Of a DNA stretch of 64,000 bases, positions 7,610 to 61,290 are shown piece after piece. The notes under the pieces are model-generated. The model saw only the letters and a list, made by a program, of their open reading frames with translations. It had not been told where the DNA came from and did not search any database. This stretch comes from Coniferiporia sulphurascens (lineage: Eukaryota > Basidiomycota > Agaricomycetes > Hymenochaetales > Hymenochaetaceae), in NCBI GenBank assembly GCA_002794785.1, contig NBBA01000002.1, positions 682,001 to 746,000 of the forward strand, written 5' to 3'. Made by a program: the position numbers and the translations under genes. Numbering within the stretch: the first letter of the stretch is position 1; every line of letters starts with the position of its first letter.

Positions 7610-8956
7610 TGTTAGTAAATTGATGAAAATTGTGATTGCCGGATCGACAGATTAGCAAGATCGACATAGCAAGACCTGTAACTCTAATTGATACCAGGAA
7701 CCTATGCCAACGCTGTAAAGATGCAGATCAAGTAGCATGGAAAGCATTTAACATTGCATGTGCAACAGTAGGGCAGAATGCAGGATATGACAACTGTCAA
7801 ATTACATTCAATCATACTACAAGGGAACAACAAGTGGCGGAAAGGCTAGAAGTAATAATTGAACATAGAGCAACTATGTTCTCATACCAATTGAATAGAT
7901 ATGTAATCAGTGCTTACACAAGAACCAAGATTTATAATCAGCCACATAATGAATTATGTTATCAAAGGGCAGTTATTACATCAACCAATTATGCAGAAGC
8001 AGCACACCAAATAGTACATACTATCAATAAACAATTACAAGAACAACTATTCGCATACAAAGCCAACTTCATAGCCAAAGGACACACAACAATAGATCAA
8101 AAGGAACCAAATCAAAGACAGGAGTTAGTACCAATAGATAAGGAGATCATAATATGATGGTTCAATGATGAACCATCATATAGAGTCACACCTGGGTATA
8201 GCAGGATAACAAATATAAACGCTATAGGGCCTGAGGAGCTCTTTATGCCAGTAGATGATAGGACACCAGAACGAACCCCTTTCAATGTATCAATGGAAAT
8301 GACTCAAGATTAGTCTATGGTAATAAATAACAAGCCACAACAAGATAAGATTAAGAAGGATAGCATAATCGCTGAGCCACACAAGTATATCTAAGTGTTT
8401 GGCTAAGAATAGCCAATGGAAGCATGGTGATCAATTGAAGATGCAATTGATGGGAGCCAAGTATAGTGCATCACATAGCAGAACCAATTAGGAAATAAGG
8501 AGAAGCATCATAGGTATAGTAGTATCTGAGAATGGTTAACTTAGGTATTATACTGTATGACTTGATGGAAACTCAGGGAAGGTTCTGGCATAAGATAAAG
8601 ATAGCATGGTAGGCTGTAGAATGTACCGGAATATGTAACTGACTCATAAGAAAGCTAAGAATAGTAAATAGCATGTACAGGATTGTACTGGAACATTCTT
8701 ATGACTTATAAAGTGAGAGTAGTATGTTGTAGTAGCTACCGGAACATAGTAAATAGACTACAACATGTAGGGTATAAAAGCCCAATGTAAAATTGTGGTA
8801 AAAAGCAGTTTAATTCATCTCTTGTCTCTTACCACCATCATCAGCTCTAACACTCTAGCAAGTGCAGGGTACCAAGCCTACCCTAAACTAACTAGTATCA
8901 TTGTGTGAATCTGTTATCACTTGTTTCTAACCCTTAATCAGGGAGTGAATCTAACA
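7610..8956 (+). repeat. C-family LTR, copy L1 (1347 bp), inserted in element A integrase
   Basis: It begins TGTTAGTAAATTGATG and ends GGGAGTGAATCTAACA. The 5 bp before it are GAAAC, which recur beside the far end of copy L2 (11665). A TATA box (GGGTATAAAAGCCC) lies near 8773, leaving a very long U3 that contains an open frame. On the right it joins inverted LTR-A sequence without a target duplication, so this LTR is a recombination product. Confidence 0.88.
7636..8313 (+). pseudogene. LTR-embedded ORF of C family, copy in L1 (broken)
   Basis: The frame is open over about 173 codons, is broken by TGA at 8155-8157, and then runs open to TAG 8311-8313. The ATG used in copies L2 and L3 (start of the MARP stretch) is ATA here. 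The product would match the intact 215-aa frame at 19000-19647, with a CQRC motif near the N-terminus. No family was recognised. It lies wholly in U3 upstream of the LTR TATA box. Confidence 0.7.
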
Positions 8957-9188
8957 CTTAAGGCTTGGTGCTCTGAAAGTGAGTTCTTATATACATGTAT
9001 AGAAACCTATGGAATATGATAGAATGCTGACTGAGTAAAGACAAGGGTCAGTCAGCATGGAAGGTAATAGAAACTGGTAGAAGAGTCTGACTGATCATGA
9101 GACTAGGATCAGTCAGTGTATAAGTAGAATTAGTCAATGAAGATGACTAATGCTGATAAAGGCAATGAGTTAAGGGAAATTTGTAACA
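8957..9188 (-). repeat. Truncated 3' LTR of element A
   Basis: The reverse strand from 9188 begins TGTTACAAATTTCCC and follows LTR-A to just inside the R region, ending at CCTTAAG where L1 abuts. Directly before it on the reverse strand is a purine tract (AAAAGGGGAGGTAA, 9189-9202), the plus-strand primer site. Confidence 0.85.
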
Positions 9189-9263
9189 TTACCTCCCCTT
9201 TTAGGGATGATATTTCATCACAAATATCAAGAAAAATAAAGGAAAAGGAAGGAATAATAAAAG

Positions 9264-9822
9264 TGTTAAGCTCAATGGTTATGCGGTGATCAATGTCGGG
9301 GCTTCCTGATCGTCGGGACGGATGGTACGGCAACGGGGCTTCCTAGATGTCGTAAGTCGAAGGTGATTGTCGATGGGGGCTTCCTGATTGGCGGTGTGGT
9401 GTGGTAGGCTTCTGAGGGTGAGTCGGGTTACGACGAAGTGACTAATAGCCAATAGGCACACAGTAGACTGGTGGTAGCAGATAATGGGCTTGTATGAACA
9501 AAGAGCACAAGCTTAGGCCTTGTGCTACTGAAGTTACATGCTTATATGCTACTTTATGTGTTTGCTACTGTAGCGACTTGGTTAGGTGTGTTTACCAGAC
9601 TGTGAAAGGTCATGGAAACTCAAGGAATGCCTTGGTAATACAAGTATGGTGATCAGCAAGCAAAGCATGTCATGATGGTGCAATAAGGCGTCATCATGGC
9701 ATCTTATGGCGTAAGGTGAATAAGGATGAGTAAGGCAGAGAAATGGGGGAGTTGCGCTGACTGATGATGACGAAGAGGAAGTGAGTCAGTGCAGTAGAGG
9801 AAAGTAAAGGAAAATTGTAACA
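9264..9822 (-). repeat. Solo LTR-B with 5-bp target duplication AAAAG
   Basis: Reverse-strand TGTTACAATTTTCC...GAGCTTAACA, 559 bp, inserted in the 3' untranslated region of element A. AAAAG stands on both sides (9259-9263 and 9823-9827). Confidence 0.9.
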
Positions 9823-10238
9823 AAAAGAGACATGGTAAGCCCAATAGGCACAAAATTAACATGCATAAAGAATAAGAGGGAATGGTGTTCCCCCAAAGTG
9901 GGTATCCACCAAGAATGTGATGAAACATTTTACAAGTACATGCTGATTTGAGTCAGTTGTCATGGGCAATAAAAGGGTTTAAAGGACGGTTTTGGGATAA
10001 ATGGGCGCAGAAGGAGAGAAGAAAGCGCACTAATCATGATAGTTTTATGTCATTCCGGACATTAGAGGGAGTTGATCCGTCTTAGTCAATCTGCATAGTC
10101 CAAATTATACCCATCAGTGAGGTTACCAAATAAGTGATCGGCCATTCCTGGGTATGAGTAGGCGGATTGGGAGGCACCCAACTCAGGGGTGCTTGGCATT
10201 TGGGGTATTGTTGTGGGAGGGCAATGGTCGATTGTGAC
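9823..10238 (-). other. 3' untranslated region of element A
   Basis: This is non-coding sequence between ORF3 and the LTR-B insertion. It has no gene and contains scattered purine tracts. Confidence 0.6.
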
Positions 10239-11060
10239 TCATCCAGTAGGGCTAGTAGAGATGTATGGTGGTGGTGCAGATGATGGATTGCAAACTGAGA
10301 GGATAATCTCCTCTGGAGTGTTCAGTTCATGAACTAGGTTGGCGATGCGCTCGGTGCGTTCTTCCATGGTATGGGAATCTGGCATCCTAGTAGGGTACAT
10401 ATGACGTAACGCAGCTACAACCTGTTCTGCACCTTCGTGACCAGGGAGAGCATGTTGCGATGGGAAGGCCCCAGGTAACTGGGGAGAGGACGTGACCGGG
10501 GGGGAATCGGCTGATGATGGGGTTGAAACGATCGGCGGTGGAACAGGGTGTATACATTCCGGGCATTCGGATTGCCAATGGCCTGGTTCTGCTGCATTAC
10601 AGTGAGGGCAGATGTATTGTGGGCAGCACCATTTGTGATGGTCCAGGGATTGGCATTCCCAACAAGCATTACAATCAGGGGCAGGAGTTGAGTGACGGCA
10701 AATGGGAGTTGTTCGTGGGAGAGTTCTTCCCAAGGAGGGATCAATGTTGTTGAGCATTCTATGCCCATTACCACGAATGATTTCGTCAATGATCATCCAG
10801 TTAGAGGCCTGAGCATGGCGAACAATACAACAGTTGTGGGTACGTATGTGTTCCAGTCCAGTGAGAAGGCTCTCTGTATGTGCAAGGAGGGAGTCTTGTT
10901 GTAGGAATAGCTGGCGGAAGCGATCGAAGCGAGTTCCAAGGAAGGCACGAGCGACCTGAGGACAGAGAGCCGGGTTGGAGAGAATGTGTGAGAGTGTAGT
11001 CTGGGTCTGGGTGTGGGCCCAGTTGTGGTGAATACACTCAGAGAGGGATGAAGACGACAT
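10239..11060 (-). CDS. ORF3 of element A: tandem zinc-knuckle protein downstream of pol
   Basis: A 273-aa open frame starts at ATG 11060, about 50 bases after the pol stop. The N-terminal half is helix-rich. The middle (about 10558-10672) holds two knuckles in tandem, spaced C-x2-C-x4-H-x4-C, four residues, then C-x2-C-x6-H-x4-C. The same array occurs in element B (54968-55636) and in a third copy (57620-57774). The C-terminus is Pro/Ser-rich. Its position is that of env or accessory genes in other Ty3-type elements, but there is no signal peptide or membrane segment. Function is unknown; nucleic-acid binding is inferred from the knuckles. Unlike the pol of the same element it has no stop codon. 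Confidence 0.75.
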   Translation of the reverse strand: MSSSSLSECIHHNWAHTQTQTTLSHILSNPALCPQVARAFLGTRFDRFRQLFLQQDSLLAHTESLLTGLEHIRTHNCCIVRHAQASNWMIIDEIIRGNGHRMLNNIDPSLGRTLPRTTPICRHSTPAPDCNACWECQSLDHHKWCCPQYICPHCNAAEPGHWQSECPECIHPVPPPIVSTPSSADSPPVTSSPQLPGAFPSQHALPGHEGAEQVVAALRHMYPTRMPDSHTMEERTERIANLVHELNTPEEIILSVCNPSSAPPPYISTSPTG

Positions 11061-11110
11061 AGTGAAAATGCTAGATGGGTCTGTGGTAGCGACTTGGTGG
11101 GTTGCTGTTG

Positions 11111-11665
11111 TTAGTGGATGTTTTTTGTGGTTTTATATGTGTTCAGGGTTTCTTGTGAATTTTCGAGGTCTTTTTCTGTTAACCATTGATTTTCTGAGGA
11201 GGGGTATCCTGTCCACTTGACCAAGTAACATCTTCGAGTTCCGTTGCCCCTGTGTCCCATGATTGCTTCGATTTCGTATTCTTCTTGTCCATCAATGAGG
11301 TCAGGTGGTGGTAAAGAGAATGATGGACCATGTGCATCAGTCTGGGTAAAAGGGGTAAGAAGCGAGGTGTGGAATATGGGGTGTATGCGCCATGCTGATG
11401 GAATTTCCAATTTGTAGACAAGTGAGGATAAAACCTCGGAGATAACGAAAGGTCCTTCCCTTTTTGGGGATAATTTCCGAGATCGCCCTGGAAAGTGAAG
11501 ATTTTTTGCTTCTAGCCAAACTTTGTCCCCTTTTTTGAATGGTCTGAAGTTCCGAGATCGAATTTGTAACATGTGTTGTCTAGCCAAATCGTGTGCCGCT
11601 AGTGCTTCCTTTCTTATGGATATCAGAAGACGCAGTCTGTCTGATAAGGTGGGAATGACGGTTTC
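11111..11665 (-). pseudogene. pol: pol C-terminus of element A: integrase end and chromodomain
   Basis: The frame from 11665 continues integrase after the insertion site with LTETVIPTLSDRLRLLISIR, then a GKKG-like basic region and a chromodomain (YEIEAIMGH...CYLVKWTGYPSSENQW), ending at TAA 11111-11113. The chromodomain would direct integration to modified chromatin. It is separated from the rest of pol by an inversion, so it is not expressed as a polyprotein. Confidence 0.88.
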
Positions 11666-13012
11666 TGTTAGATTCACTCCCTGAGTAAGGGATTGAAACA
11701 AGTGATAACAGATTCACACAGTAATACTAGTTAGTTTAGGGTAGGCTTGTTATCCTTCACTTGCTAGAGTGTTAGAGCTGATGATGGTGGTAAGAGACAA
11801 GAGATGAATTAAACTGCTTTTTACCACAATTTTACATTGGGCTTTTATACCCTACATGTTGTAGTCTATTTACTATGTTCCGGTAGCTACTACAACATAC
11901 TACTCTCGCTTTATAAGTCATAAGAATGTTCCAGTACAATCCTGTACATGCTATTTACTATTCTTAGCTTTCTTATGAGTCAGTTACATATTCCGGTACA
12001 TTCTACAGCCTACCATGCTATCTTTATCTTATGCCAGAACCTTCCCTGAGTTTCCATCAAGTCATACAGTATAATACCTAAGTTAACCATTCTCAGATAC
12101 TACTATACCTATGATGCTTCTCCTTATTTCCTAATTGGTTCTGCTATGTGATGCACTATACTTGGCTCCCATCAATTGCATCTTCAATTGATCACCATGC
12201 TTCCATTGGCTATTCTTAGCCAAACACTTAGATATACTTGTGTGGCTCAGCGATTATGCTATCCTTCTTAATCTTATCTTGTTGTGGCTTGTTATTTATT
12301 ACCATAGACTAATCTTGAGTCATTTCCATTGATACATTGAAAGGGGTTCGTTCTGGTGTCCTATCATCTACTGGCATAAAGAGCTCCTCAGGCCCTATAG
12401 CGTTTATATTTGTTATCCTGCTATACCCAGGTGTGACTCTATATGATGGTTCATCATTGAACCATCATATTATGATCTCCTTATCTATTGGTACTAACTC
12501 CTGTCTTTGATTTGGTTCCTTTTGATCTATTGTTGTGTGTCCTTTGGCTATGAAGTTGGCTTTGTATGCGAATAGTTGTTCTTGTAATTGTTTATTGATA
12601 GTATGTACTATTTGGTGTGCTGCTTCTGCATAATTGGTTGATGTAATAACTGCCCTTTGATAACATAATTCATTATGTGGCTGATTATAAATCTTGGTTC
12701 TTGTGTAAGCACTGATTACATATCTATTCAATTGGTATGAGAACATAGTTGCTCTATGTTCAATTATTACTTCTAGCCTTTCCGCCACTTGTTGTTCCCT
12801 TGTAGTATGATTGAATGTAATTTGACAGTTGTCATATCCTGCATTCTGCCCTACTGTTGCACATGCAATGTTAAATGCTTTCCATGCTACTTGATCTGCA
12901 TCTTTACAGCGTTGGCATAGGTTCCTGGTATCAATTAGAGTTACAGGTCTTGCCATGTCGATCTTGCTAATCTGTCGATCCGGCAATCATGATTTTCATC
13001 AATTTACTAACA
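11666..13012 (-). repeat. C-family LTR, copy L2 (1347 bp), inverted
   Basis: Reverse-strand TGTTAGTAAATTGATG...CTAACA followed by GAAAC at 11665-11661, the target duplication of the insertion in element A. Its 5' part is nearly identical to L1, whereas its last ~60 bp match L3 rather than L1 (TTTCAATCCCTTACTCAG against TTTCTAACCCTTAATCAG). This chimeric pattern fits reciprocal recombination between inverted LTRs. On the other side it abuts element D without a duplication. Confidence 0.85.
12309..12956 (-). pseudogene. LTR-embedded ORF of C family, copy in L2 (one stop)
   Basis: ATG at 12956 begins the MARP frame, with CQRC shortly after. TGA at 12465-12467 interrupts it at the same place as in L1, where L3 has a sense codon. 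The frame otherwise continues to TAG at 12309-12311. It is the same unknown protein as 19000-19647. Confidence 0.7.
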
Positions 13013-16000
13013 AGCAGATTATTAGGCATGGAGCGCAAAGTAAGTTTACTCCTAACCCAGAACAATGGATTAGGCGAGGAAAAGACAATAGTGATGATTC
13101 CTCATCCTCAGATGATAGTAATATCCTAATATGAAAGAGAGGACTTGCACATGGAAGCTCAGTTACCACCAGTGCCAAAGAGAAAAAGTCCCAATCACCC
13201 CCAGGAGAAAAGGAATGTGAGGAGGAAGGAGAACCTTCGTCAAACCCTAGGTCATTCGAAAAAGAGGAGACTCCTGAAAAAGAAGAGTCATCCAAAGAAT
13301 CAGGGCCGTCAACCAAACACAAGAGATCAATATTGGTGAGCCCATCTCTTGCTAGGAAGAAATCCAAGGGAAAAACTGAGTCGGGGAGTGAAAGCGGACA
13401 GTCCATCTGCAAAGATACTAGACATGAGCATGCAAAAGAAGAATCTGATAAAGAATATAAACAATTACGAAGAAGTGGGGTTAGTAGAGAAGAAGCTACA
13501 AAAGCAGCAGATCAAGTATATGATAATATATACTATCCAATCAATCCATTAAAGGAATTACCAGGAATGCCTGATTTGACTAGCAAATTAGAAGGTATGC
13601 AATTAGATGGAGAAACAATAAAGAAGGTAATTGTATGTGGAGAGGGAACTTCGCTTGGAGAAAAGGAACAACCAAACATTAATGTAAGGAGGAATTGGAT
13701 ACCTCCAAAGGTGCTAAAATGGCAGGAAACAATAAAGGCAAATCGGCCTATGGATGATGATAAGACAAGGAAGAAGCTGATCAAATATAGTAGCATAGCT
13801 CAGAAATACTCTCAAGAAAAAGCCATTAAAGAAGGAAGATCAGCAAACACACCAGAGAAGACCTTCAAAGATTTAGTACCCAAAGAATTATGGGACTATG
13901 AAGACAGATTCAGTAAAGATAAAGCAAAACACTTACCAAAAAGTACTGATTGGGATATGAAAATAGATTTTGTTGAAGGCACAGTATTACCAAATAGAAG
14001 ACCAGTATATCCCCTGTCAATTACTGAACAAGAGGCCATTGAAGAATTCATCAAGGAAAATATAGAAAAAGGTTGGATTAAGAAATCAAACTTGCAAATA
14101 GTGGCACCAGTATTCTTTGTAGGGAAAAAGGACGCTGGGGCCAGAATGGTAACAGATTACCAGGAGATTAACAAAATCTGTAAACCGGACCCATTCCCCA
14201 TACCTATAATGCACACACTACCTGATGCATTATCTAAAGCAAAAATATTTATGACATTGGATTTAAGATCAGGATACAACAACATAAGGATTTGACCAGG
14301 AGACGAATGGAAGGCAGCATTCAGAACACATAAAGGAGTGTTCGAACCTAAGGTCATGATGTTTGGCATGATGAATTCACCAGCAGTATTTCAATGAGCA
14401 ATGAATGAGTTATTCGCAGACTTACTTAATAAGGGAGTATTAGTATACTTAGATGACATAATCATTTACTCAGTTAATGAACAAGAACACATTAAGCTGA
14501 CTAAACAGGTATTACAACGATTAAGGAAGGCGGATTTTTATTGTAAACCAGAAAAATGTTACTTCAACAAGAAAGAACTCGACTACTTAGGATTCGTAGT
14601 CAAAGAAGATGGATTAAAAATGGACCCATACAAGATTAAAGCCATACGAGAATGGCCGGAGCTCAAATCAAAGAAAGAAATAAGAAGATTTATAGGATTT
14701 GCCAACTTTTATAGAAAGTTTATAGCAAACTATTCATTAATAGCTCGACCATTAACGAAACTCATGAGCACAACAAGAATGTTTACATGGGGAGAAGAAC
14801 AGAAACAGGTGTTTCAAAAGCTAAAAGAAGAATTTTGCAAGGAACCAATGTTAACAATGCCCAATCCAAACAAGAGGTTTATAGTAGAAACTGATGCTTG
14901 CCAAGAAGCAGCTGGAGCAGTATTATCACAAGAAGGAGAAGATGGTAAGTTAAAAATGATTGCTTACTATTCTAAAACCTTTTCTGCTATGGAACAAAAC
15001 TATCATATAACGGAACTAGAATTATTAGTGATAGTATTAGCCTTTGAACAATGGAGGCATCATCTAGAAGGGGTCCAACATATGACACTAGTGTTAACAG
15101 ATTCACAAAATTTAAAAGTATTTGCTGATCTAAAGAAGTTGAACAAGCGAAAAGCCAGATGGGCTTTAACATTAAGCAACTACAACTACGAAATACAGTA
15201 TAGATCAGAAAAGAAAAATACTAGAGCAGACACTTTATCAAGAATGTATGGAGGAGATAAGTTAGCACTGACACAAGAAATGGCTATCTTACCACTAGAA
15301 AGGTTTACAGATAAAGTATATCAACCACTGTCAATAAAAGTCAATACAATAACAACTCATTACGAAGAAGTTCAGAGAGAAGATGCAGATATTGTATCTG
15401 AAATTAGGAACACCTATAAAGGCGAAGGATGGAAGGAAGAACTGGAAAGCCAAGAAAAATACGATAAACGAAATGGGCTTTACTTCCTGAACCATAAAGT
15501 ATGGGTACCTCCTGATGAAGAAATAAAGACAAAGATACTATTGAAGTATCACAACCATGTTACCACTGGGCATCCAGGATGGATGAAAACCCAAGAATTA
15601 GTAGGGAGAAACTTTAGATGGCCAAGAATGAAGCCATGGATCAAACAATACATGCAAACATGTGATACATGTCAAAGGGCAAAAGCACCTCAAGGAGCCG
15701 TACAACCACCACTACAACCGTTACCAGTGCCAGAATTACCCTGGGAACATATGACATGTGATTTTATAACAGGATTACCCCTTAGTAAAGGAAACAATGC
15801 CATATTTGTAGTAGTCGACCGATTAACCAAGATGGGAGTATTTATCCCATGCCATGACACGGTAACAGCTAAACAAACAGCAGACATGTTTATCAAATAT
15901 ATATTCACAAAATACGGAATGCCTAAGAAGTTAACAGCAGATAGAGGGCCCCAATTTGCTAGCAAATTTTTATTAGCAGTTTGTAAACAGTTAGGAATCG

Positions 16001-17079
16001 AAGCAGCACTAAGCACGGCCTATCATCCTCAAATGGATGGACAAACTGAAAGAATAAATCAAGAATTGGAGCAGTATATAAGGTACTATGTCAATTATCG
16101 ACAGAATGATTGGGAAGCATATCTCAGTACAGCGGAATTTGCATACAACAATAGAGAACATTCAGCAACAAAGATGTCACCCTTCTATTGTTTATATGGA
16201 AGACACCTGATGCTAGAAATATTACCAGGAGAAATCAATCAACCAGAAGCAAGAATGTATCTAGAAAATATACAGACAGTCCAAAAACAAGCTAGAGAAG
16301 CAATGGAAAAATTGAATGCCCAAATGAAATTATATGCTGATAAAAGCAGAGGTAAATTACTGGAAATACAAGTAGGTGATAAAGTATTGTTGGATGCAAG
16401 AAATTTACACTTAGCAGTACCAACAAAGAAATTCGCGAATAGAAATATAGGACCCTACAAGGTAATCAAGAAACATGGTCCAGTTAACTACGAATTGGAA
16501 CTACCATATGAATTAAGAATACATCCAGTATTCCATTCAGGGCTATTAATAAAATACAAAGAACAAGGTTATCCAGGAAGAGAATTACCTGAATGGCCGG
16601 AACCAGAATTAATAGCCAAAGACTTTGAATATGAAGTAGAAAAGATATTAGACACAGCCAGAAGGAATAGGGTAGTTAAATATCTTATAAAATGGAAAGG
16701 ATACGGAATAGAAGACAATACATGGGAACCCTTAAGTGGACTTACTCATGCAGCAGAAATGGTAGCAAAATTCCATGATGACAACCCAGAAGCAATAGAA
16801 CCACCGAATCTAACAACATGGGTAAATCAGAACCTTATACTAGCTAGAAGAATAAAGGATTATCAAAAGAGAGCTAGATGGTTAGCACTGGAACAAATGC
16901 CAGGGTGGATATCAAGAGCTTTGGAAAGGAGACCAAATGACGAACCAGGATTGGTTAGAACACCAAGAAACAGGAGTACAGCGGAACTGTTAGGACCAAG
17001 GGTAACCGTGGTTAGCTGATGGAACAAGTAGTTGAGATAGAGTTGAGGCGTGTGATTGAGTCAAGAATAAGTCAGTAGA
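13013..17079 (+). mobile_element. Ty3/gypsy chromovirus 'element D', 5'-truncated internal region
   Basis: It starts inside gag next to inverted LTR L2 and ends after the pol stop, where LTR E begins. AT-rich codon use and few lesions set it apart from elements A and B. No LTR of its own can be assigned with certainty. It could be the internal part of the C or E family, whose ends lie nearby. Confidence 0.85.
13017..17019 (+). pseudogene. pol: gag-pol of element D (gag end, RT, RNase H, integrase, chromodomain)
   Basis: One frame runs from the junction to TGA 17017-17019, broken only by TGA at 13130, 14293 and 14396. The first ~130 codons are an acidic, Ser/Lys-rich gag or linker region. RT follows, with VYLDDIIIY at about 14446 intact, then RNase H (ETDACQEAAGA) and TELELL. 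Integrase has an H-x-H and CDTCQRAK zinc domain, CDFITGLP, ADRGPQFAS, and the E in DGQTERINQELE. The C-terminus has a GPF-like basic domain and a canonical chromodomain (YLIKWKGYGIEDNTWEPL, ~16620-16790). I see no D-S/T-G protease motif. The two RT stops are explicable as CGA-to-TGA. Confidence 0.9.
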
Positions 17080-18473
17080 TGTTGGTACTTCACTCAGGAG
17101 AAGTCTGAGAGAATTGAGAAGGTGAATTAAACTGGGGGTCTAGGCTGGTCTAGGCCCTCCTTATATACATGAAGAAGAAGCTCCGCTTGAAAGCAGACAC
17201 TCCACAAGGCTCTGCAGTTGGAGCTATGACGCCTCACAGTGTCATCATAAGCTCCACTGACTTGGAGCTGCGTACCAGTGCAAATGACCTCATTAGAGGA
17301 TCATATGAGAAATAACTATCTACGATTGGCCGTTGGTGCTCCACTGAGCTCCTCTGTGTGTCATGCGCTCCACTATGCTCCACTATGCTCCACTATGCTC
17401 CACTGAGCTCATAGGGACGTCATATGGTATCATAATGACTTCACCATGATGCTTAGGCTGTGCGCATCACCCCACTGTTCTGCATGCTACCCTGTAGTCT
17501 TATGTGCCAGTGGCTTCTTGTTGAGATGCTGCCTAACAGCTTGATGATTGGTAAGTCGTTAACTTGTCTTGTTGGCCTCCTGTACTGGTTCCTCCATGTT
17601 ATCCTGTCAACTTGGACAATTGTCCATTTAAGGTTTGTGGCTGGCTTCAGTAAGCGCTTCGGTTCCTGCCGAGTGTGGCTTAATCACGTAATGCGATATC
17701 AGCTAAAGGTCCGTAGGCAGGTACCCTTCAGTTGGTGTCCTGTCGTCGATCACATTGTCCGGCGGTTCGTTAATGTGGTTTATCCTAGCGATACGTTGCG
17801 TGTATCCTGGAGGTGGTGCTGGGGGTGATCCATTTGATAACCATAATGTTATCATGTAAAGATTAACATTGCCGATCTGCTGATCGGCAGTCATCGATCC
17901 CTTTGCTGATAGATTCTTGAAGAGGGTGATTACCTTTGCGCGTAATCGGTGAGCGTTAGCTAGGAATGTGTTATCCTGCAACATCCTGTACAGGAAGGAT
18001 CCTGAGACCACTCATAGGTCACATTCCTTGTCATGTATGTGTGGGTTCACTATCATCTGGACATGGACATTGTGCAAAAACTCCTGTACATCGAAGATGT
18101 ACATTTGTATTGTGTGCATTACCCTGACCTCTGTGCCATCGCCTATAGGGTCTACAGCATGATCTGTAGTTACCTGGCAGTTTGTGTATCCTGCCATGTA
18201 AAAGCATTCAGTTATTACCATGTTAAATGCTTCCCATGATTGATTGTATGCGGTCCGGCATCGGTGGCAGAGTCTTGATGAGTCAAGAGTCTTTAGTGGT
18301 CGCTTGAGCATCGTGATTGGCCTGATGTTCCCAAGAAGTCCTGGTTTTCTAGTTAGTTCCATCCCCATGTTGAATGATCGCTGGATAGTCTCTGTGGGAG
18401 TCCCTTCCTGTATTGGTAGTCGCTGGTGTCGTTGTCTAAGCTTGTAAGCAAGCTTATTCATCAATTCCTAACA
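17080..18473 (-). repeat. E-family LTR (~1394 bp), diverged relative of the C LTR, inverted
   Basis: On the reverse strand it begins TGTTAGGAATTGATGAATAAG, resembling the C LTR start, and ends GAAGTACCAACA. It has a TATA box (GTATATAAGG, 17157-17166 reversed) and, like C, a GGTGAATTAAACTG-type segment after it and a U3-embedded ORF. A short tandem of GCTCCACTAT units lies near 17365-17405. No 5-bp duplication is seen at its edges (GTAGA against GGAAC). Confidence 0.65.
17703..18464 (-). pseudogene. LTR-embedded ORF of E family (diverged homologue, one stop)
   Basis: ATG lies at 18461, only 13 bases into the LTR. The frame is open for 150 codons, has TGA at 18012-18014, then stays open to 17703. 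It aligns with the C-family ORF in order: RPxxxLDSSRLCHRC (C: LIDTRNLCQRC), GYTNCQVTTDHA (C: GYDNCQITFDHT), and near the end PGYTQRIARIN plus DDRTPTEGY (C: PGYSRITNIN, DNRTPERTPF). It shares the CxxC and overall length but identity is low, so the frame has been kept while the sequence diverged. Function unknown. Confidence 0.65.
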
Positions 18474-18943
18474 GGAACCATATGTAAGCAGACCTCCTGA
18501 TTACAAGGCTAAACTGATCCAGGTGTCTAATAAAGACAGACCTCCTGATCATGAGGATAAACTGATCAATAGGTCCAAAAAGGATGGACGACCTCTAATT
18601 CACAAGGATAAAACTGATACAGGACCATCTAAACACGATGAAAAGGTGTCGAATATAGCACAACAGACTCCGGACCCCGAGGAAAAACTGGTCAAAAGGA
18701 TCCTAAAGAAAGTTTCATTTCAAGAAGAAAACTTAAGCGGATCAACAGAAGTGGACTCAAATGGAGACCCACAATCTGATCAAGAATCTGACAGATTTTA
18801 TGAGCAACTATTAGCTTATTATAACTCACCAAGTAGTAAAGAATTCTCTGTGAGCCCAAGGTTGTTAAAGAAGTAGACAAATTTTCATAAATAATTGATC
18901 AATTTTTCATTACATTGCCAAAATTTGATCTTAAGAAGGGTGG
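18474..18943 (+). mobile_element. 3' internal end of a C-type element with Lys/Asp-rich ORF end and polypurine tract
   Basis: An open frame (18523-18876; begins MSNKDRPPDHEDK) ends in TAG before an A/T-rich stretch and AAGAAGGGTGG (18934-18943), a polypurine tract that directly precedes LTR L3. The first codons contain a degenerate repeat of the DRPPD-x3-KLI type. This is the expected end of an internal region whose 3' LTR is L3. The protein is charged, low-complexity and not recognised. Confidence 0.6.
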
Positions 18944-20289
18944 TGTTAGTAAATTGATGAAAATCGTGATTGCCAGATCAACGGATTAGCAAGATAGACA
19001 TGGCAAGACCCATAACTTTAATCAATACCAGGAATCCATGTCAATGTTGTAAAGATGCAGATCAAGTAGCATGGAAAGCATTTAACATTGCATGTGCAAC
19101 AGTAGGACAGAATGTGGGATATGACAACTGTCAAATTACATTTGATCATACTACAAGAGAACAACAAGTGGCAGAAAGGCTAGAAGTAATAATCGAACAT
19201 AGAGCAACTATGTTCTCATATCAATTGAATAGATATGTAATCAGCGCTTACACAAGAACTAAGATTTATAATCAGCCACATAATGAATTATGTTATCAAA
19301 GGGCAGTTATTACATCAACCAATTATGCAGAAGCGGCACACCAAATAGTACATACTATCAATAAACAATTACAAGAACAACTATTCACATACAAAGCCAA
19401 CTTCATAGCCAAAGGACACACAACAGTAGATCAAAAGGAACCAAATCTAAGACAGGAGTTAGCACCAATAGATAAAGAGATTATAATACGGTGGTTCAAT
19501 GATGAACCTTTGTATAGAGTCACACCTGGGTATAGCAGGATAACAAATATAAACGCTATAGGGCCTGAGGAGCTCTTTATGCCAGTAGACAATAGAACAC
19601 CAGAAAGAACCCCTTTCAATGCAATAATGGAAATGACTCAAGATTAGTCTACAGTAATAAGTAACAAGCCACAACAAGATAAGATTAAGAAGGATAGCAT
19701 AATCGCTGAGCCACACAAATATATCTAAGTGTTCAGCTAAGAATAGCTGATGGAAGCATGGTAATCAATTGAAGATGCAATTGATGGGAGCCAAGTATAG
19801 TGCATCACATAGCAGAACCAATTAGGAAATAAGGAGAAGCATCATAGGTATAGTAGTATCCGAGAATGGTTAACTTAGGTATTATACTGTATGACTTGAT
19901 GGAAACTCAGGGAAGGTTCTGGCATAAGATAAAGATAGCACGGTAGGCTGTAGAACATACCGGAATATGTAACTGACTCATAGGAAGCTAAGAATAGTAA
20001 ATAGCATGTACAGGATTGTACCAGAATATTCCTATGACTTATAAAGCGAGAGTAGTATGTTGTAGTATCTACTGGAACATAGTAAATAGACTACAACATG
20101 TAGGGTATAAAAGCCCAACATAAAATTGTGGTGAAAAGCAGTTTAATTCATCTCTTGTCTCTTACCACCATCATCAGCTCTAACACTCTAGTGAGTGAAG
20201 GGTAACAAGCCTACCCTAAACTAACTAGTATTACTGTGTGAATCTGTTATCACTTGTTTCAATCCCTTACTCAGGGAGTGAATCTAACA
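18944..20289 (+). repeat. C-family LTR, copy L3 (1346 bp), 3' LTR of a C-type element
   Basis: TGTTAGTAAATTGATG...CTAACA, preceded by a polypurine tract, so it is in 3' LTR position. It differs from L1 and L2 at scattered sites but keeps the LTR ORF fully open. A TATA box (GGGTATAAAAGCCC) lies near 20102. The right flank is CAGGC; no partner duplication was found because the left end of the element is rearranged. Confidence 0.88.
19000..19647 (+). CDS. Intact LTR-embedded ORF of C family (215 aa), unknown function
   Basis: ATG at 19000-19002 (57 bases into the LTR) to TAG 19645-19647, uninterrupted. It lies in U3, about 450 bases upstream of the LTR TATA box. Visible features are a CxxC (CQCC here, CQRC in L1 and L2), a long helical, Gln- and Asn-rich central part (NYAEAAHQIVHTINKQLQEQ), and a C-terminus with PGYSRITNIN and DNRTPERTPF. 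There is no signal peptide, transmembrane segment or known enzyme motif. A full element would carry it twice, once per LTR. Homologous frames lie in L1, L2, E and L4. I do not recognise the family. LTR-located accessory genes (for example nef or sag types in retroviruses) are only a positional analogy. Confidence 0.65.
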   Translation: MARPITLINTRNPCQCCKDADQVAWKAFNIACATVGQNVGYDNCQITFDHTTREQQVAERLEVIIEHRATMFSYQLNRYVISAYTRTKIYNQPHNELCYQRAVITSTNYAEAAHQIVHTINKQLQEQLFTYKANFIAKGHTTVDQKEPNLRQELAPIDKEIIIRWFNDEPLYRVTPGYSRITNINAIGPEELFMPVDNRTPERTPFNAIMEMTQD

Positions 20290-23037: not shown

Positions 23038-23286
23038 GGACCCGAACTCTTTGTCCCTCTAATATACATTTAACAAAAGTCTTTGGTGGGCCGGTCGGAC
23101 TCGCCCAGCCACCAGCCAGTACCTTGCTTGAGCTTGGCTACAGGGACAAGTAGTGCTGACGACTGTGTGGTACTATACAAGGGAAGAAAACAAAGATAAA
23201 TCAGCCGATTGTTTTTGTGAGTTGATTCTCAAATAAGCAAATTTGATTTTTACGCTCACCTTTTCTGACCGCAGTTTGAGACGCTT

Positions 23287-25707
23287 TCAATTTTGGATCC
23301 TATCAGGCTCGTATTCGCTCTCTGTCTCGCTCCCGCCCTTGCCCTCGCTTTCACTCCCATCCTCGCTTTCACTCCCATCCCCGCTTTCACTCCCATCTTC
23401 GCTTTCACTCCTAGTCCCGTCTCCGTACAAGAACAAGCGCTCTTCTCTATCTCGCTCAAGCGCTTCCCGGATCTTTACGCCCAAGTATCCCTCCGACTCC
23501 CTCTCCCACTTTGTGAAGGGCACATTCCTACGCACATCCTTGTCTGGGTCTAGGGGCGACCAAGCGTAAGGACCTGTTGTGTCAAAACGCTCTTGACCGT
23601 CATCCACGATGCTGGGATACATCTCCAAAGCACATCGCAAAACGTAGATTTCATGGTCTATCTTCTTTTGGGAGCACGAGATATCGGTCCATTTCCTTTC
23701 GGAAATTGTGGTGTACGTCATCCGGGCGCGGGGCTGATCACCTGCGATGTACAAGGGCCCTCCCCCCGCGTCGTGTCCGGCAAGAATCGGGATATAATGT
23801 GTGGAAAAGGGAATGGCATATGATACTCGGAGAAAATGACGACTGTGCTCGGAAAATGATAGTAGCCGCTGCGTTGTCATACACGCCCTATTATGGCATT
23901 TATAATATTTGTTCTGTGAGTGTGAGCGACTATAAGGGACGGAATGCACAACATTCAATCAAACTTCTCACAGGGACAATGTGTACCAGGTTCTCATGGA
24001 TATCACGGTGTCTGAAAACTGTCCAACCTCTTTGACGCCCCTCTCTCTTTCTAGCATGTGCAACGCAGACTTCTTCGGTTTCCTTCACTAGTGATTCACA
24101 TTCTGAAGAAAGCCCAAATGTGGTTCCGGAGAGCGATTTCAAAATAGCGGCCCGACAGTACCCGTCCATGGTAAGCATCAATCTGACACTGTGACGCGCA
24201 CGCTTAGAAAATGCGCTGTTATCGCTGTGCATGAAAATCAAGTTTGCAATTATTTGAAAACTGCGTTATAAAGAGCTGCTTACTCATCGGCGTAAATCGC
24301 TAGGTTACGGCAAAAAGTTTCCAACTTCCCGGGGGGAATAACATATCTGTTGAAACCAAATGCGCAGGACCGTTCATTCAAGGTCCGACTCATGACTAAT
24401 TTCGACGGACGAGCAAGCCAAAATAGAAGCGGGTACAAGTCAGGGTTTGGGTACATGATCTGAAGGCGCCGCAGATCTATGTTGTAAATATTGTCTGTTT
24501 TAGTTCGCCTCCCTATGCCAGTAAGGACCAAAAGTGATATTTGGTGAGTCCGCAAAAGACGCATAGTATATACGATGTCGTCAATGTTGTCATGAGCAAG
24601 GAGCGACTGGAAAACTTTTGAGTTTATTGCTTTCGGAAGCCTTTCTGCATACCTGTGAACGGAAGATTAGGTGGAGAGAGATGATATCTTCACTACAGAC
24701 TTACCAGACGATAAACTCCATTATCCTACAGAGTTTGTCCATCAGGAAGACAAGACCATAGGTGAACAGATGTATAAATTTGTGTTCTACTAGATACGCA
24801 ATCAATCGGTCAAGAAGCGCATCAACCATGTCCCATTCGAAAGCTTCCGGATCTTTAGAGATATTTACGAGTAAATCATCCAGGAGATTCAACGAGTTCT
24901 CCGAGAGAAAATACCAATTCCTTTCGCCATCCATAACAATTCGTGCAATATACCGTAGAAGTAAAAATGAACGGCTGCTATCACTATTAGTAAAAACGTC
25001 AGTGATAAATTTGCAACATTAAACAAAATATCAATGAAGCACCTTAGACATTCTCTAACAGCGTCGAACGCCTGCTTTTCATTCTGCCTTAAACGAATAT
25101 TCTTATCAAGTTCCCAAGCAAGCCCATGTATTTCTGTGTCTGCAAGGGAGACAAGGGCTTTGCGAGAGCTGTTCAGCAACATACCATCGCTATCGACCCA
25201 TATAGCGGTATTTTTGTGAAAATGTCCTATGATTCGAGTCGCATCCATGCTGTTGAGAAGGCCTCTAACATGCTGGTCTTTGAACGCAAAATCGGTGATA
25301 CGATCCAGGGCTTGTCGGCTTGTTGATGGGACTTGTGAGCTAGGCGCCGTGTCAGCCAGGAAAATCAATGAACATTCTACTATAACACACGTAGCATATT
25401 TGATCAAGCGCTTGCAGTCTTCTTCGAGCCTTTTATCCTCTGCTTTGATTGTCTTGCTGAGAGATGCGGAGGTTATAACCTCGCAGCGTCTTTGTATCCT
25501 GGTTGCCGTTACGCGAGGCCCACGGCCAAACGTTTCTGCAACCCGACCAAGTTGTCCTTCTAGACGCCGCCCCAAGCGACCGTATATGTTCCCGATAATG
25601 CGCCCGGGACCAGGGAGATTGTCTGCAGTTGCGTTTGTGCTAACTGACACTATAGAGCCCTGATCTGAGTCCATGTCGGAGACGTTTAAATAGTATCTAT
25701 AGTCCAT
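23287..25707 (-). CDS. Five-exon hypothetical gene family X, copy 1 (possible DM9-like C-terminal domain, acidic tail)
   Basis: The start is ATG 25707 (MDYRYYL). Exon 1 runs to about 25040 and an intron follows with a CTGAC branch-like site. Exon 2 ends at a GTAAGT donor (~24706), exon 3 spans about 24650-24285 (donor GTAAGC), exon 4 about 24230-23972 (donor GTGAGA), and exon 5 23913-23287. Exon 1 is helix-rich (LPGPGRIIGNIYG, TSRQALDRITDFAF, ALVSLADTEIHGLAWELDK). Exon 5 has a C-x4-C pair, then LAGHDAGGGPLYIA and EIYVLR, which remind me of DM9/DUF3421 repeats; this is weak. The tail is a run of ESEDGSES-like acidic repeats. Introns with consensus ends are conserved in all three copies, arguing for a real gene. 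Function unknown. Confidence 0.55.
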
Positions 25708-26880: not shown

Positions 26881-27856
26881 AAGAGATAGACTTTTGTCTT
26901 CTCAAGTAATTGGATGTCAAGCCGGGCGACAGCCTCCAGAGACTATATGCACATAGAAACCACTTATTCAGCGCTTGCACACACCGATTTGTCATGCTTC
27001 CCATTCCGACTGCCGCCCATCCAGTTAAGAAATCCCAGATGATAAGCCCAACTTTTCTTTCTCAGTTCATCACTGGTGCTATGTCTTAGGCTGCCGAGGA
27101 CTAGGTGCATCAGTGTGAGGGACGGTATGTCATCGGAGTCTAGAGCGGATAATCATGCCTACTTTGTTTCGAATAAAATGGCGACCTGATCAGCGTGAAT
27201 TGTTGAGATGGCTCCTGCGAGCCGTAAGCCTTTTCGTTTATTTCTTTTGCGGAAGCATGGCAATGGATAGAGGTTTGCGACGGATTCATCAGACATTATG
27301 AGTGTTCCTTCGAGTGAGAGCGCTCTTGCTACTTCCCATCTGATTAGCGTGCTCCGTTTATTTCATTTTCTTAGCATAAATACAGGACACACAGTAATGC
27401 AATATTTAATGCAATCGTGTCTTGCCTGCTTTCTGGATGATAGGCTAGCCGCGTAGCGCCCATGTAGTCATAATTTGAATAATCTCTGTACATTTATCCG
27501 GTGCAGCAACCCTCTTGTGCTCTGTCAATAGTTACACTGGATACGAGAGCTCTCTAACTGGAGTTGAAACCGTCCCAAGTCCTGCTCCCCAGGCACCCCA
27601 TAGTCCCGCCAGTAATATTAGCGTTCTCGTAGACCCGAACCTTCCATCACTATATTATACATTTAGCGAAGTCTTTGGTGAGCCGGTCGGACTCATCTAG
27701 CCACCAGCTAGTACTTTTCTCGAGTTCGGCTACAGTGACCAGTAGTGCTGACGATTGTGTGGTACTATACAACGGTAGAAAACAAAGATAAATCAGTCGA
27801 ATGTTTCTGTGAGTTGATTCTTAATTAAGCGGGTTTAATTTTTATCCTCACCTTTT
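26881..27856. repeat. Degenerate duplicated spacer, including remnants of the 128-aa frame
   Basis: It resembles 22540-23280 and 38970-39960 segment by segment (CTTTGGTGAGCCGGTCGGACTC, the TGTGTGGTACTATACAA motif, GAGTTGATTCT). Frames are disrupted. It also carries a segment absent from copy 1 but shared with copy 3 (27085-27370 and 39180-39470). Confidence 0.5.
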
Positions 27857-30317
27857 CTAACTGCATCCTGAGACGCTTTCAATTTGGGTCCAATTAAACT
27901 TGTCTTTGCTCTCGGTTTCGCTTCCGCCCTTGCCCTCGTTTTCACTCCCATCCTCGTCTTCACTCCCATCCTCACTTTCGCTCTCACCCTCATCCTCGTC
28001 TTCGCCTTCACTCTCTTCTTCGCCCTCACTCTCGTCTTCGCCCTCACTCTCGTCTTCGTACCACTCCGGAGTAAAACCCTGATGTCCTTCAAGCATTTCT
28101 CGGATCTTTACACCCAAGTATCCCTCAGACTCTCTCTCCCGTTTTGTGAGGGGCACATCTTCAAGTTCATCCTTGTCCAGGTCTATTGACAACCAAGCGT
28201 AAGGACCTGTTGCATCGAGACGCTCCTGGCCATCATCCACGATGCTGGGCTGCATTTCTAAAGCGTATTGCAGAACGTAGACTTCATAACACGTCCCTTC
28301 TTGGGAGAAAAAGGTTTCGGACCATTCCCTTTCGGTTATTGCGGTGTACCCGTCCCAGATGGAAAGATCATATGCGATATACGATGGAGCTCCCTCTGCG
28401 TCACGTCCAGCAAGAAATGGGTTATAATCTGTAGAAAACGGAATGGCTTTTGATACTCGGTGGATAAGAAGACCGTCCTTGAGAGGTAATCGTAGCCGCT
28501 GCATTGTCACACACGCCCCATTATGACATTTATAAAATCCGTTCTGTGAGTGGGAGCGACTATGAGGGACGGAATGCACAACATTCAATCAGACTTCTCA
28601 CAGGGATAACGTGTACCAGGTTCCCATGGACATCACAGTGTCTGAAAACCGTCCTATCTCTCCAACGCTCCTCTACAGCCTCCCTAGCGTTTGCAACGCA
28701 GACTTCCTCGGTTTCCTTCACTAGTGATTCACATTCTGAAGAACGCCCAAATGCGGTTCCGGAGAGCGATTTCAAAATTGCGGCTCGACAGTGTCCGTCC
28801 ATGGTAAGCAACAATCTGACATTGTGTCGAGCACGCTCAGAACATGCGCTATTATCGCTATGCATGAAAATTAAGATTGCAATTATTTGAAGATTGCGTT
28901 ATAAAGAGCTGCTTACTCATCGGTGTAAATCGCTAGGTTACGGCAAAACGTTTCCAACTTCCCAGGGTGAATAACATTTGGTTGGATTCCCAACCATTCA
29001 CTCAAGATCCGACACATGATTAGGTCCGGCGGACAGGCAAGCCTAAATAGAAGCGGATACAAGTCAGGGTTTGGGTACATGTTCCGAAGATGCCGCAGAT
29101 TTATGTCGTAAATATTGTCTATTTTAGCTCGCCTCGCTATGCCAGTAAGGATCCAACGTGATATTTGGTGAGCTCGCAAAAGACGTTCAGTATTTACGGC
29201 ACCGTCATAAACAAGGAGCGACTGGAACCATTTTGAGTTCATTGTCTTCGGAAGCCTTTCTGGATACCTGTGAACGGAAGGTTAGGCGGAGAAAGATGAG
29301 ACCTTCACTACAGACTTACCGGAAGATAAACTCCGTCATACTGGAGAAGTTTTTTTCAAAAGAGCCAACTAAATAGAGAAGTACATCGGTAGATGTATAC
29401 TCTCTCTCTGCTTGATACGCAAACATCAGGCCAAGAAGTGTATCAACCATGTCCCATTCGAAAGCTTCCGGATTCTCAGAGATCCTTATGAGTAAGTCAT
29501 CAAGCAGATACACCAAGAGAAAATGCCGTGCACTTTCGACATCCATAACGATTCGTGAGAAATACCGTAGAAGCAGAAATGAACGGCTGCCATCACTATC
29601 AAAAGCGTTAGTGATAAATTTCCAACATTACCAACATAACAAAATATCAGCGAAACACCTTAGACACTCTACAACAGCATTTAACACCTGGTCCTTATTC
29701 CCCCCCTCCCGAATATTCTTATCAAGTTCCCAAGCAAGCCCATGTATCTCTGTGTCGGCAAGAGAGACAAGAGCTTTGCGAGAGCTGTTGAGCAACATGC
29801 CATCGCTATCGACCCATATAGCGGTATTTTTGTGAAGACGTCCTATGATTCGAGTCGCATCCATGCTGTTGAGAAGATTTCTGACATGCTTGTCGCTGAA
29901 CGCAAAATCGGTAATACGATCCAGGGCTTGCCGACTTGTTGATGGGACTTGTGAGCTAGTCGCCATGTCAGCCAAGCAAATCATTTTACACTGTACCATA
30001 ACACACGTAGCATATTTGATCAAGCGCTTGCAATCTTTTTCGAGCTTTTTACTCTCTGCTTTGATTGTCTTGCTGGGAGATGCGGAGGCAATAACCTCGC
30101 GGCGTCTTTGTATTCTGATCGCTGTTACACGAGGCCCATGGCCTAACCTTTCTGCAATCCGACCGGCTTGTATTTCCAAAATCCCTCCTAGAAATCCGTA
30201 TATATTCCCGATAATGCGCCCGGGACCAGGGAGATTGTCCGCAGTTGCATTCGTGCTAACCGACACTATAGAGTCTCGATCCGATTCCGCGCTTAAATAG
30301 TATCTATAGTCCGCCAT
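27857..30317 (-). CDS. Five-exon hypothetical gene family X, copy 2
   Basis: The start is taken at ATG 30317 (MADYRYYL), matching copies 1 and 3. A longer in-frame start at 30389 is possible but not conserved. The exon pattern is as in copy 1, with the same donors (GTGAGA before exon 5) and a CACTAAC branch site in intron 1. Exon 5 keeps the C-x4-C pair (CHNGAC) and LAGRDAEGAPSYIA. The acidic tail is longer than in copy 1 (ESEGEDESEGEEESEGEDED and more), so the repeat tract varies in length. No obvious stop inside exons. Confidence 0.55.
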
Positions 30318-30581
30318 GTCGCATGTGCGTCTACAGGGACCGGTTCTGTTATATGTTTCTATCAGGAGTCGTCGCAGTGGAGAGGTCAAGCAGGGCTGCA
30401 GCGAAGGAGGAGGAAGCCACGAACGCGCAAGACCCGTCCGCTGCGCTTCTTATATTGTTGTTCCTCATCTTGACCTAGGAAGTGCATAGCGAGAAGAAGT
30501 GCGCCTGGCCATTAACACGAGGCGGGCTGTGTGCACAGTGGATTTTAATTCCCGATACATTTAGGTTGAGGGTTCTGTCGT

Positions 30582-38827: not shown

Positions 38828-40088
38828 TACAGCATTGCAACAGCATTTTAACGTGACGATCGATTGTCTCTGGGAGTCTGACGGGAGGACCCTTGAGTTG
38901 TTTGATGGCCGGAGATTCTGTGACTCGGCGAAGATCTCAACGACCTAATTGATGAAAGTTCCGACGAATTCCTGACGAAGAGACTGACTTCTGTCTTTTC
39001 AAACAACTGGAATGTCGAGCCAAGCGCCAGCCTTCAGAGACCATACGCACTTGATACTACTTATTCCAGAATTGCACACACCGACTTGTCATGTTTCCCA
39101 TTGCGACTGCCGTCCATCCAGTTAATAAGTCTAAGATGATAAGACCACCTCCTTTTCTCAGTTCCTCACTGGTGCGATGTATTAGGCTTCTGAGGACTAG
39201 GCGCATGAGTAGAGAGGAATGTTATGTCATCGGAGTCTAGAACGGATACTCATGCCTACTTTGTTTCAAATAGAGAGATGAGCAGCATGGATTGTGGAAA
39301 TGGTTCCTGCGCGCCGTAAGCCCTTTCATCTATTTCTTTTGCGGAAGCATGACAGTGGATAGAGGTTTCCGACGGATTACTCAGACATTATGAGCGTTCC
39401 TTCGAGTGGGAGCGCTCTTTCTACTTCTCACCTGATTAGCGTACTCCGTCTACTTTATTTTCTTAGCATAAATACAGGACACAGGGAAATGCAATATTAA
39501 ATGCAACCGTGCCTTGCTTGCTTTCTGGACGATAGGCTAGCTGCGTAGCGGTTCCCCATGTAGTCGTAATTTGAATAAATAGAAGCTTTGTACATTTATT
39601 CGGCACAATAATTCTCCTGTACTCTATCAATAGTTTTACTGGAATCGAGTGACTATCGGACCGGAATTAAAACTGTTCATAGTCCAGCTTGGCAGGCCCC
39701 CTGTTGACCCACTATTAATATATACATTCCCGCTTCCGTCACTATAACATATATTTGACGAAAGTCTTTGGTGAGCCGGTCGGACTCATCTAGCCATCAG
39801 CCAGTATTTTGCTGAGCTTGGCTACAGTGACCAGTAGTGCTGACGATTGTGTGGTACTATACAAGTGAAGAAAATAAAGATAAATCAGCCGAATGTTTCT
39901 GTGAGTTGATTCTCAAATAATCAGGTTTAATTTTTATGCTAACTTTTTCCGCTCATATTTTAAGGCGCTTTCAGTTTTGAATCCTATCAGGCTTGTACTT
40001 GCTCTTACTCTAGGTTTCGCCCTTGCCCTCGTCCCCGCTTTCATCCCCGCTTTTGCTCTCTCCCTAGCACCCACCTTCTCCCTCGCTC
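38828..40088. repeat. Duplicated spacer of unit 3 (degenerate)
   Basis: Collinear with 22440-23280 and 26880-27850. Remnants of the 128-aa reverse-strand frame are present at about 39480-39745 but broken. No other gene seen. Confidence 0.5.
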
Positions 40089-60003: not shown

Positions 60004-60689
60004 GTTCCAGCATGTCCCAGAGCATGCCAGAACACAGCAGGTGTCAGATTCGCTCCCTGATTAAGGGTTAGAAACAAGTGATAACAGATTCACACAATGA
60101 TACTAGTTAGTTTGGGGCAGGCTTGATACCCTTCACTAGCTAGAGTGTTAGAGCTGATGATGGTGGTAAGAGACAAGAGATGAATTAAACTGCTTTTTAC
60201 TGCAATTTTACTTTGGGCTTTTATACCCTACATGTTGTAGTCTATTTACTATGCTCCAGTAGATACTACAACATACTACTCTTGATTTATAAGTCATAGG
60301 AATATTCTGGTACAATCCTGTACATGCTATTTACTATTCTTAGCTTCCTATGAGTCAGTTACATATTCCGGTATGTTCTACAGCCTACTGTGCTATCTTT
60401 ATCTTATGCCAGAACCTTCCCTGAGTTTCCATTGAGTCATACAGTATAATACCTAAGGTGACCATTCTCGGATACTACTATACCTATGACTAATCGGTTC
60501 TGCTGTACGATGCGCTATACTTGGCTCCCATCAATTGCATCTTCAATTGATCGCCATGCTTCTATCAGCTATTCTTAGCTGAATGCTTAGATATACTTGT
60601 GTGGCTCAGTGCTTATGCTAGCCTCCCTAATCTTATCTTGTTGTGGCTTTGTTACTTATTACTGTGGACTAAGATTGAGTTGTTTTGCC

Positions 60690-61285
60690 TATAGATTAAT
60701 GATATCAGTGAAAGGGGTTTGCTCTGGTGTCCTATCATCTATTAGCATAAAGAGCTCTTCCGGCCCTACATTCATAAGGTTTACAATTCTATTGTAACCT
60801 GTCATGACTCAATATGATGGTTCTTCATTCATCCAATGCATTAGGAGTTCTCTGTCCATGTTCATCATCTGAGGTGTTCCTTCTTCTCTTTGATCTACTG
60901 TTGTATTTCCTTTGGCTACAAAGTTGTTCATGTATGCAAACATTTGTTCTTGTAATTGCTTATTGATATTATGAACTATTTGGTTGGTGTTCTTAGCATA
61001 ATCAGTTTGTGCTATCACTGTTCATTGATAACATAAGTTATTATGTGGCTGATTACATATCCTAGTTCTGATGTAAGCATTGATTACCCACTTGTTTAGT
61101 TGGTAAGAGAACATTGTGGCTTTGTATTCAATTACAATTTCTTGTTTATCCATTACTGGTATTTCCCTTGTAGTATGATCAAATATGATTTGACAGTTAT
61201 CATATCCTGCATTTGCACCTATCATTGCACATGCTATGTTGAATATCTTCCAGCTAATTAGATTTGCATCTTTACATCACTGACA
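60690..61285 (-). pseudogene. LTR-embedded ORF of C family, diverged copy in L4
   Basis: The same frame order as in L3 is readable: GYDNCQIIFDHTTRE, ATMFSYQLNKWVINAYIRT, HNINKQLQEQMFAY, GPEELFM and DDRTPEQTPF. TGA codons at 61019-61021 and near 60807 break it, and the N-terminus is removed by the LTR-B insertion and lies near 62420-62460. Divergence is higher than between L1, L2 and L3. Confidence 0.7.
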
Positions 61286-61290
61286 CATTC

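Follow-up and report, generated by a model that had tools for sequence, protein, structure and literature searches.

A reading frame under purifying selection inside the U3 region of Ty3/Gypsy long terminal repeats, probably a retrotransposon accessory gene

Vertebrate retroviruses have genes in or overlapping U3, among them MMTV sag, nef and the bel genes of spumaviruses, and these U3 genes are expressed from the 3' copy of the LTR. The MMTV product Sag has a strongly hydrophobic segment. Both such U3 genes and the presence of extra open reading frames (ORFs) in LTR retrotransposons are thus already known. CERV of the C. elegans element Cer1 is made from a spliced mRNA and is needed for the export of the genomic RNA (PMC10309623).

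The locus described here has, as in the sag, nef and bel cases, a probable accessory gene that sits past the structural genes, in U3 of the 3' LTR; unlike them, it belongs to a Ty3/Gypsy element in an apparently fungal host, and its product has neither a Pfam match nor a strongly hydrophobic segment. With CERV it shares the nature of an additional gene that takes up part of the env position, the lack of homology outside the lineage and a cysteine-rich region, whereas CERV has 517 aa and exons shared with gag and, in the available portion of that report, is not placed in the LTR (PMC10309623). The ORF3 of bdelloid elements is similarly a diverse extra ORF by gag and pol, often non-envelope, with full-length copies scarce, but in the portion of the source available it is an ORF of full-length copies, not placed in the LTR, and several versions have enzymatic or env domains (PMC5408684). 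Finally, crapaud of Podospora anserina is likewise a fungal chromodomain LTR element, and its U3 before the TATA box recombines and diverges fast between subfamilies; its LTRs, however, measure 339-443 bp with a variable U3 part of <200 bp, and the text at hand notes no U3 gene (PMC10787394).

We analyzed a window of 64,000 nucleotides, positions 682001-746000 of contig C2 in a genome of 39.35 Mb and 31 contigs. A sequence-only reading had described a homologous frame in five LTR copies of the window (L1, L2, L3, L4 and E), located between the LTR start and its TATA box, and all five copies are present where it put them. The frame of L3, which it called fully intact, is indeed open from the ATG at 19000 to the stop at 19645-19647 (225 codons in a version started at TTG). 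The features of the locus are as follows.

7610..8956, + strand: L1, C-family LTR; frame 7636-8310 with one TGA
11666..13012, - strand: L2, C-family LTR, inverted relative to L1; frame 12312-12986 with one TGA
13333..16987, + strand: first part of pol of L3's element (RT, RNase H, integrase and chromodomain, from Pfam); in-frame stops at 14293 and 14395
16988..18473, - strand: E-family solo LTR within pol, 1486 bp, TGTTAGG...CCTAACA, with GGAAC at 16983-16987 and 18474-18478
17703..18461, - strand: counterpart of the U3 gene in E; 252 codons and a stop, interrupted by a single TGA (18012-18014); its protein runs collinear with that of C
18479..18876, + strand: last part of pol of L3's element, beyond the E insertion; phase retained across E, first stop at 18874
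18933..18943, + strand: polypurine tract before L3, AAGAAGGGTGG
18944..20289, + strand: L3, complete C-family LTR, the 3' LTR of a Gypsy element; TGTTAG...CTAACA ends, polypurine tract directly upstream
19000..19647, + strand: U3 gene; open, ATG-started frame of 215 codons and a stop, N/S 0.16, omega 0.15
20106..20112, + strand: TATA box of the LTR promoter, 3' of the gene; TATAAAA in 44 of 48 aligned C copies, the remaining 4 gapped there
60042..61290, - strand: main part of L4, a diverged LTR; gene with 60% amino-acid identity to L3
62417..62511, - strand: 5' end of L4, cut off from the rest of it by a further insertion

The C unit is a true LTR, 1346 bp long in L3 and ending in TGTTAG...CTAACA, with the frame at LTR positions 57-704 and the TATA box at 1163. 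Of 44 complete distinct C copies with both flanks, 23 are flanked by exact 5-bp target duplications, against 0.19 expected from random pairing of flanks between copies, and 3 more show the duplication with one mismatch. The exact duplications mean that the unit inserts as an LTR, with the frame inside it. For the E copy, the nearly open frame noted in the sequence-only reading stands, but its LTR limit at 17080 was 92 bp off; the extra 92 bp recur next to E at other loci. L4 is interrupted at ~61291-62416 by a different repeat, of which several relatives occur in the window. The start codon position of the L1 frame reads ATA. L1 and L2 were rejected as a direct LTR pair, being inverted copies at 99% identity. 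The 5' flank of L1, GAAAC, has its match in the flank that follows L2; a second Gypsy pol breaks off at 7609 and continues on the opposite strand at 11665. This layout is consistent with the stretch 8957-11665 having inverted, with a solo LTR on one side and another copy on the other. Flanking 5-mers (GAATG) are exchanged between two further C copies on different contigs (L024 437-1786 and L045 235-1583); ectopic recombination between LTRs possibly explains this, though a single match could be chance.

L3 closes a Ty3/Gypsy chromodomain element as its 3' LTR; the pol of this element is broken by the E LTR. The Pfam domains in 14401-17019 come in the order RVT_1, RT_RNaseH, Integrase_H2C2, rve, SH3_Tf2-1 and Chromo, the portion of this ORF past 16987 belonging to the E LTR; this order, the TG...CA LTR with its 5-bp duplication and the tract beside the 3' LTR are those of Ty3/Gypsy chromodomain LTR retrotransposons. 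The pol stop is followed by 56 bases, the tract, the LTR start, 56 LTR bases and the ATG at 19000, which lies 123 bases 3' of the pol stop. With the polypurine tract placed after pol and ahead of the gene, all of the gene is in U3 and would go into both LTRs at each transposition. Among the LTR copies in the window, the tract AAGAAGGGTGG precedes only L3. The 5' part of the L3 element is missing in the window, and its pol has two in-frame stops. Of 148 candidates, 53 matches were scored; among these the pol itself is the sole close copy, the next best having 69% identity over 351 residues and the others at most 42%. A second copy of the tract with pol tail, with 2 mismatches, lies at C14:498446-498469 and is cut short upstream; the link between gene and pol thus rests on one 3' end and a 5'-truncated fragment on contig C14.

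Three other regions of the window also caught our attention. Two long adjacent open frames at 30791-37101 (788 and 1315 aa) read, from their translation, like the zinc-knuckle ORF1 and the endonuclease-RT-RNase H protein of a non-LTR retrotransposon. The open frame at 62954-63964 runs across 129-base tandem repeats, and its translation reads as WD40-type repeats. A segment of ~2.6 kb is present in three diverged copies (23129-25704, 27721-30320 and 39813-42497) with 63-91% identity in pieces.

To measure selection on the frame, we aligned 48 distinct C copies on L3, counting L3 itself, with L4 and the L3 duplicate excluded and L1 dropped for having the same sequence as L2 in the key stretch. 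Diversity (pi) at codon positions 1, 2 and 3 was 0.051, 0.040 and 0.115, and 0.061 in the noncoding rest of the LTR. Gap cells made up 0.04% of the frame versus 5% of the noncoding part, a low gap content that selecting matches spanning the frame may favor; deletions in the frame region, of 9 and 3 bases, were found in two copies. Non-CpG transitions present in at least two copies numbered 16/392 for nonsynonymous (N) and 46/176 for synonymous (S) changes, giving an N/S of 0.16, while the same count gave 1.9-2.9 in the other frames and 0.85-1.17 in the noncoding part of the LTR. The N/S of the frame was 0.07 for transitions in at least four copies and 0.31 with every variant, and the controls over all non-CpG transition counts ranged over 1.4-7.2 in other frames and 0.85-1.32 in noncoding sequence. 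The low nonsynonymous number was reached in 0 of 2000 permutations. Shared non-CpG transversions were sparser and their N/S weaker at 0.44 (singletons 0.52). A codon model with CpG codons removed gave an omega of 0.15 in the frame and of 1.9, 2.7, 2.7, 3.6 and 0.45 in the other five, the last being an antisense frame; without the transition term, the values were 0.10 in the frame and 0.32-2.1 in the others. The C copies were initially drawn from a protein search, a bias that we checked and that remains: 18 copies chosen by DNA pattern or location, the majority also in the protein-search list, showed an N/S of 0.20 in frame and of 1.7 and 2.8 out of frame. We conclude that the U3 frame is under strong purifying selection; this constraint and the location in U3 of the 3' LTR are features that it has in common with accessory genes of the sag and nef kind.

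The E family provides a separate set. Among E copies N/S was 0.37 in frame versus 2.2-2.3 out of frame; the set has six rows with one genomic copy entered twice (L036, L038), which leaves the 0.37 unaffected and affects the figure of 0.42 for variants in at least two copies. E retains a collinear homologue with constrained codons. The suggestion of the sequence-only reading that the protein is selected, and does not stay open by chance, is borne out: N/S falls well short of 1 in the annotated frame and in no other, both among C copies and, separately, among E copies. The dN/dS comparison that it proposed gave 0.15-0.32 by NG86, and 0.13-0.46 by YN00 for the pairs where YN00 ran, within and between C copies, the 85% subfamily and L4 and within E. 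The NG86 values were 0.15 for L3-L2, 0.16 for L3 against the 85% subfamily, 0.23 within the subfamily, 0.24 for L3-L4, 0.32 for L2-L4, 0.25 for subfamily-L4 and 0.23 and 0.28 for E-E; between C and E, synonymous sites are saturated and dN/dS is not obtainable. L3 and L4 form a mosaic, with an identity per 100 bases of 55-81% in the gene and 89-100% beyond it, indicating that the gene and promoter halves differ in history or constraint.

Both the ATG and the stop codon of the U3 gene are kept in 48 of 48 aligned C copies. Another ATG, at LTR position 14 (window 18957), is also kept in 48 of 48; it opens a 10-codon frame ahead of the gene and nearly coincides with the start of the E gene, whose ATG is at LTR position 13. 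The C and E proteins, of 215 and 252 aa and with a pI of 6.3-7.1, are collinear and 25% identical over 213 aligned columns (E-value 9e-19). Residues C14, C17, C32, C44 and C98 are invariant in all 48 C copies, and the columns conserved at ≥90% over the C, L4-like and E rows include C17, W25, G40, Y41, N43, C44, H50, H94 and C98. The proteins show no strongly hydrophobic stretch, and searches of Pfam, NCBIfam and PDB sequences gave no match above cut-off. A Pfam search with 12 members of the protein alignment (A3) likewise returned none above cut-off, its best weak E-value being 0.024, to Diedel, and brought up no sequence homology to known U3 products. The database relatives are two only, P0001 and P0002, the latter with 86% identity to an 84-residue L4 fragment; none was found with an E-fragment query, and none in viral contigs or plasmids. 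Structural models of the protein were of too low quality for interpretation. Given a product with no recognized domain, any function is a guess.

The fate of inserted copies can be read from their CpG sites. Of the 60 stops in the C copies, 56 are CGA to TGA changes, located at four codons; 12, 17, 14 and 5 copies bear zero, one, two and three stops, and hence 36 of the 48 bear at least one. Counted by presence, the CpG N/S is 0.86, a value flattened by saturation as nearly all CpG sites vary, and we therefore measured the decayed fraction per site. That fraction was 0.44 at protein-changing sites (25 sites), 0.50 at stop sites (4), 0.47 at noncoding sites (44) and 0.66 at synonymous sites (23). 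Changing and stop sites together did not differ from noncoding ones (P = 0.83), whereas the synonymous fraction was higher than the changing one (P = 0.0006). Since decay at protein-changing sites matches that of noncoding sequence, inserted copies look dead. Our reading is that they decay irrespective of the protein, although some constraint may persist after insertion, and that the excess synonymous decay predates insertion.

Genome wide, we counted 204 matches to the 21 bases that open C, with at most three mismatches (control 1) and L4-like relatives included, and 82 to the 23 bases that open E (control 0). The C tract plus LTR start has six occurrences at the same tolerance, and a matching pol tail is found in only two of them, the window and C14:498446; of the remaining four sites, two carry their own exact duplications. 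One E copy on contig C2 is preceded by the tract AGAGGGGGTGG, and the 50 bases just before it have 84% identity to the 3' end of the L3 element, which means that the 3' ends of C and E elements are related and that E also has real 3' LTRs. The exact sequence GATGGGGGG stands 5' of two further E copies, bringing the tract-bearing E copies observed to three. At L039 1472-1690, two E copies of contig C2 lie head to head ~209 bases apart, the + copy being the tract-preceded one. A related LTR start, TGTGAGGAATTGGTG, is preceded by GATGGGGGG at C5:427151-427174 and perhaps represents a further family. No complete two-LTR element was found, eight loci with same-strand C neighbors (L009-L016) included. 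We looked in vain for the 5' half that the L3 element lacks, using the LTR end and the expected duplication; the best candidate, L070, showed no gag-like frame on inspection by eye.

We consider it probable that an accessory gene 3' of pol has been engulfed by U3 and is expressed from the 3' LTR. The frame would then belong, as an accessory gene, to a lineage of Ty3/Gypsy chromodomain retrotransposons, and its product would serve the element. Where the LTR is solo or at the 5' end of an element, the gene is upstream of the TATA box, and the LTR's own promoter should therefore not transcribe it; a full element would express it from its 3' LTR, either close to the 3' end of the genomic RNA or by a spliced or internally started message. 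The hypothesis of a conserved splice donor in R/U5 found no support, the single recurrent GTRNGY site being present in 8 of 48 C copies. Among conceivable roles for the product we favor, though with the odds somewhat against it, that of a soluble protein regulating either the element's RNA or silencing by the host. CERV is a precedent for an extra gene of an LTR retrotransposon that can serve genomic RNA export (PMC10309623).

The scarcity of internal regions invites another account, namely that what moves is the LTR-sized unit itself, a short gene-bearing non-autonomous element mobilized in trans instead of a solo LTR derived by recombination. The 204 C-type and 82 E 5' ends against two C copies with tract and pol tail and three tract-bearing E copies agree with this, as do the loci L009-L016, where no complete copy beyond those known has a tract and where at least one copy in each of L009, L012, L013 and L014 has its own exact duplication. 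A recombination-derived solo LTR would, however, show identical structure and duplication, L3 has both tract and pol, and we regard the account as unlikely. An excess of solo LTRs is ordinary in yeasts, and in fungi generally. For crapaud, 1455 terminal repeats versus 150 full copies over seven genomes are reported (PMC10787394). A version in which the new protein family marks a lineage with its accessory gene only in the LTR, its LTR-sized units spreading in trans via a rare pol-bearing relative, seems to us similarly improbable. If true, the product would act on the unit's own RNA or DNA, and selection on the frame alongside the near-absence of internal regions would be explained.

Domestication, with the gene serving the host and solo LTR copies kept by selection, could account for the many copies with nearly intact frames and for a synonymous CpG decay exceeding that at changing sites. 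We judge it very unlikely: there are hundreds of copies, most of those aligned carry a stop, nearly always from CGA to TGA, and CpG decay at protein-changing and stop sites is like that of noncoding sequence. The frame is directly 3' of pol, the usual place of env-like genes, and were the LTR boundary wrong it would be an ordinary internal gene, gag or env for instance, an outcome that the sequence-only reading had named as refuting its claim. This is contradicted by the target-site duplications in 23 of 44 copies, and the TG...CA ends, the TATA box inside the unit and past the gene and the lack of a Pfam match above cut-off also speak against it, leaving it barely credible. An A-rich coding strand (AT skew 0.16 at 18001-20000) could reduce stops in one reading, but chance or composition is contradicted by frame-specific constraint beyond all permutations, by noncoding controls near 1 and by the E homologue, and we give it practically no weight. 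The probable reading thus stays that of an accessory gene of the retrotransposon, carried in U3.

What seems new here is a constrained orphan gene wholly within a Gypsy LTR, in an apparently fungal host and in two or more LTR families that have diverged deeply, for which the literature searched holds no precedent; that search, with subscription journals thinly covered, returned no report of an ORF inside a fungal LTR. LTRs are usually taken as noncoding, and as neutral for insertion dating and repeat libraries, whereas about half of this long LTR is a constrained gene, retained throughout the divergence of C and E, whose proteins now share 25% amino-acid identity. Gene finders may call many orphan genes in such genomes that are LTRs. 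The same copies contrast constrained change before insertion with CpG decay after it, and whatever role the orphan protein family found here may play in the retrotransposon cycle is open to testing.
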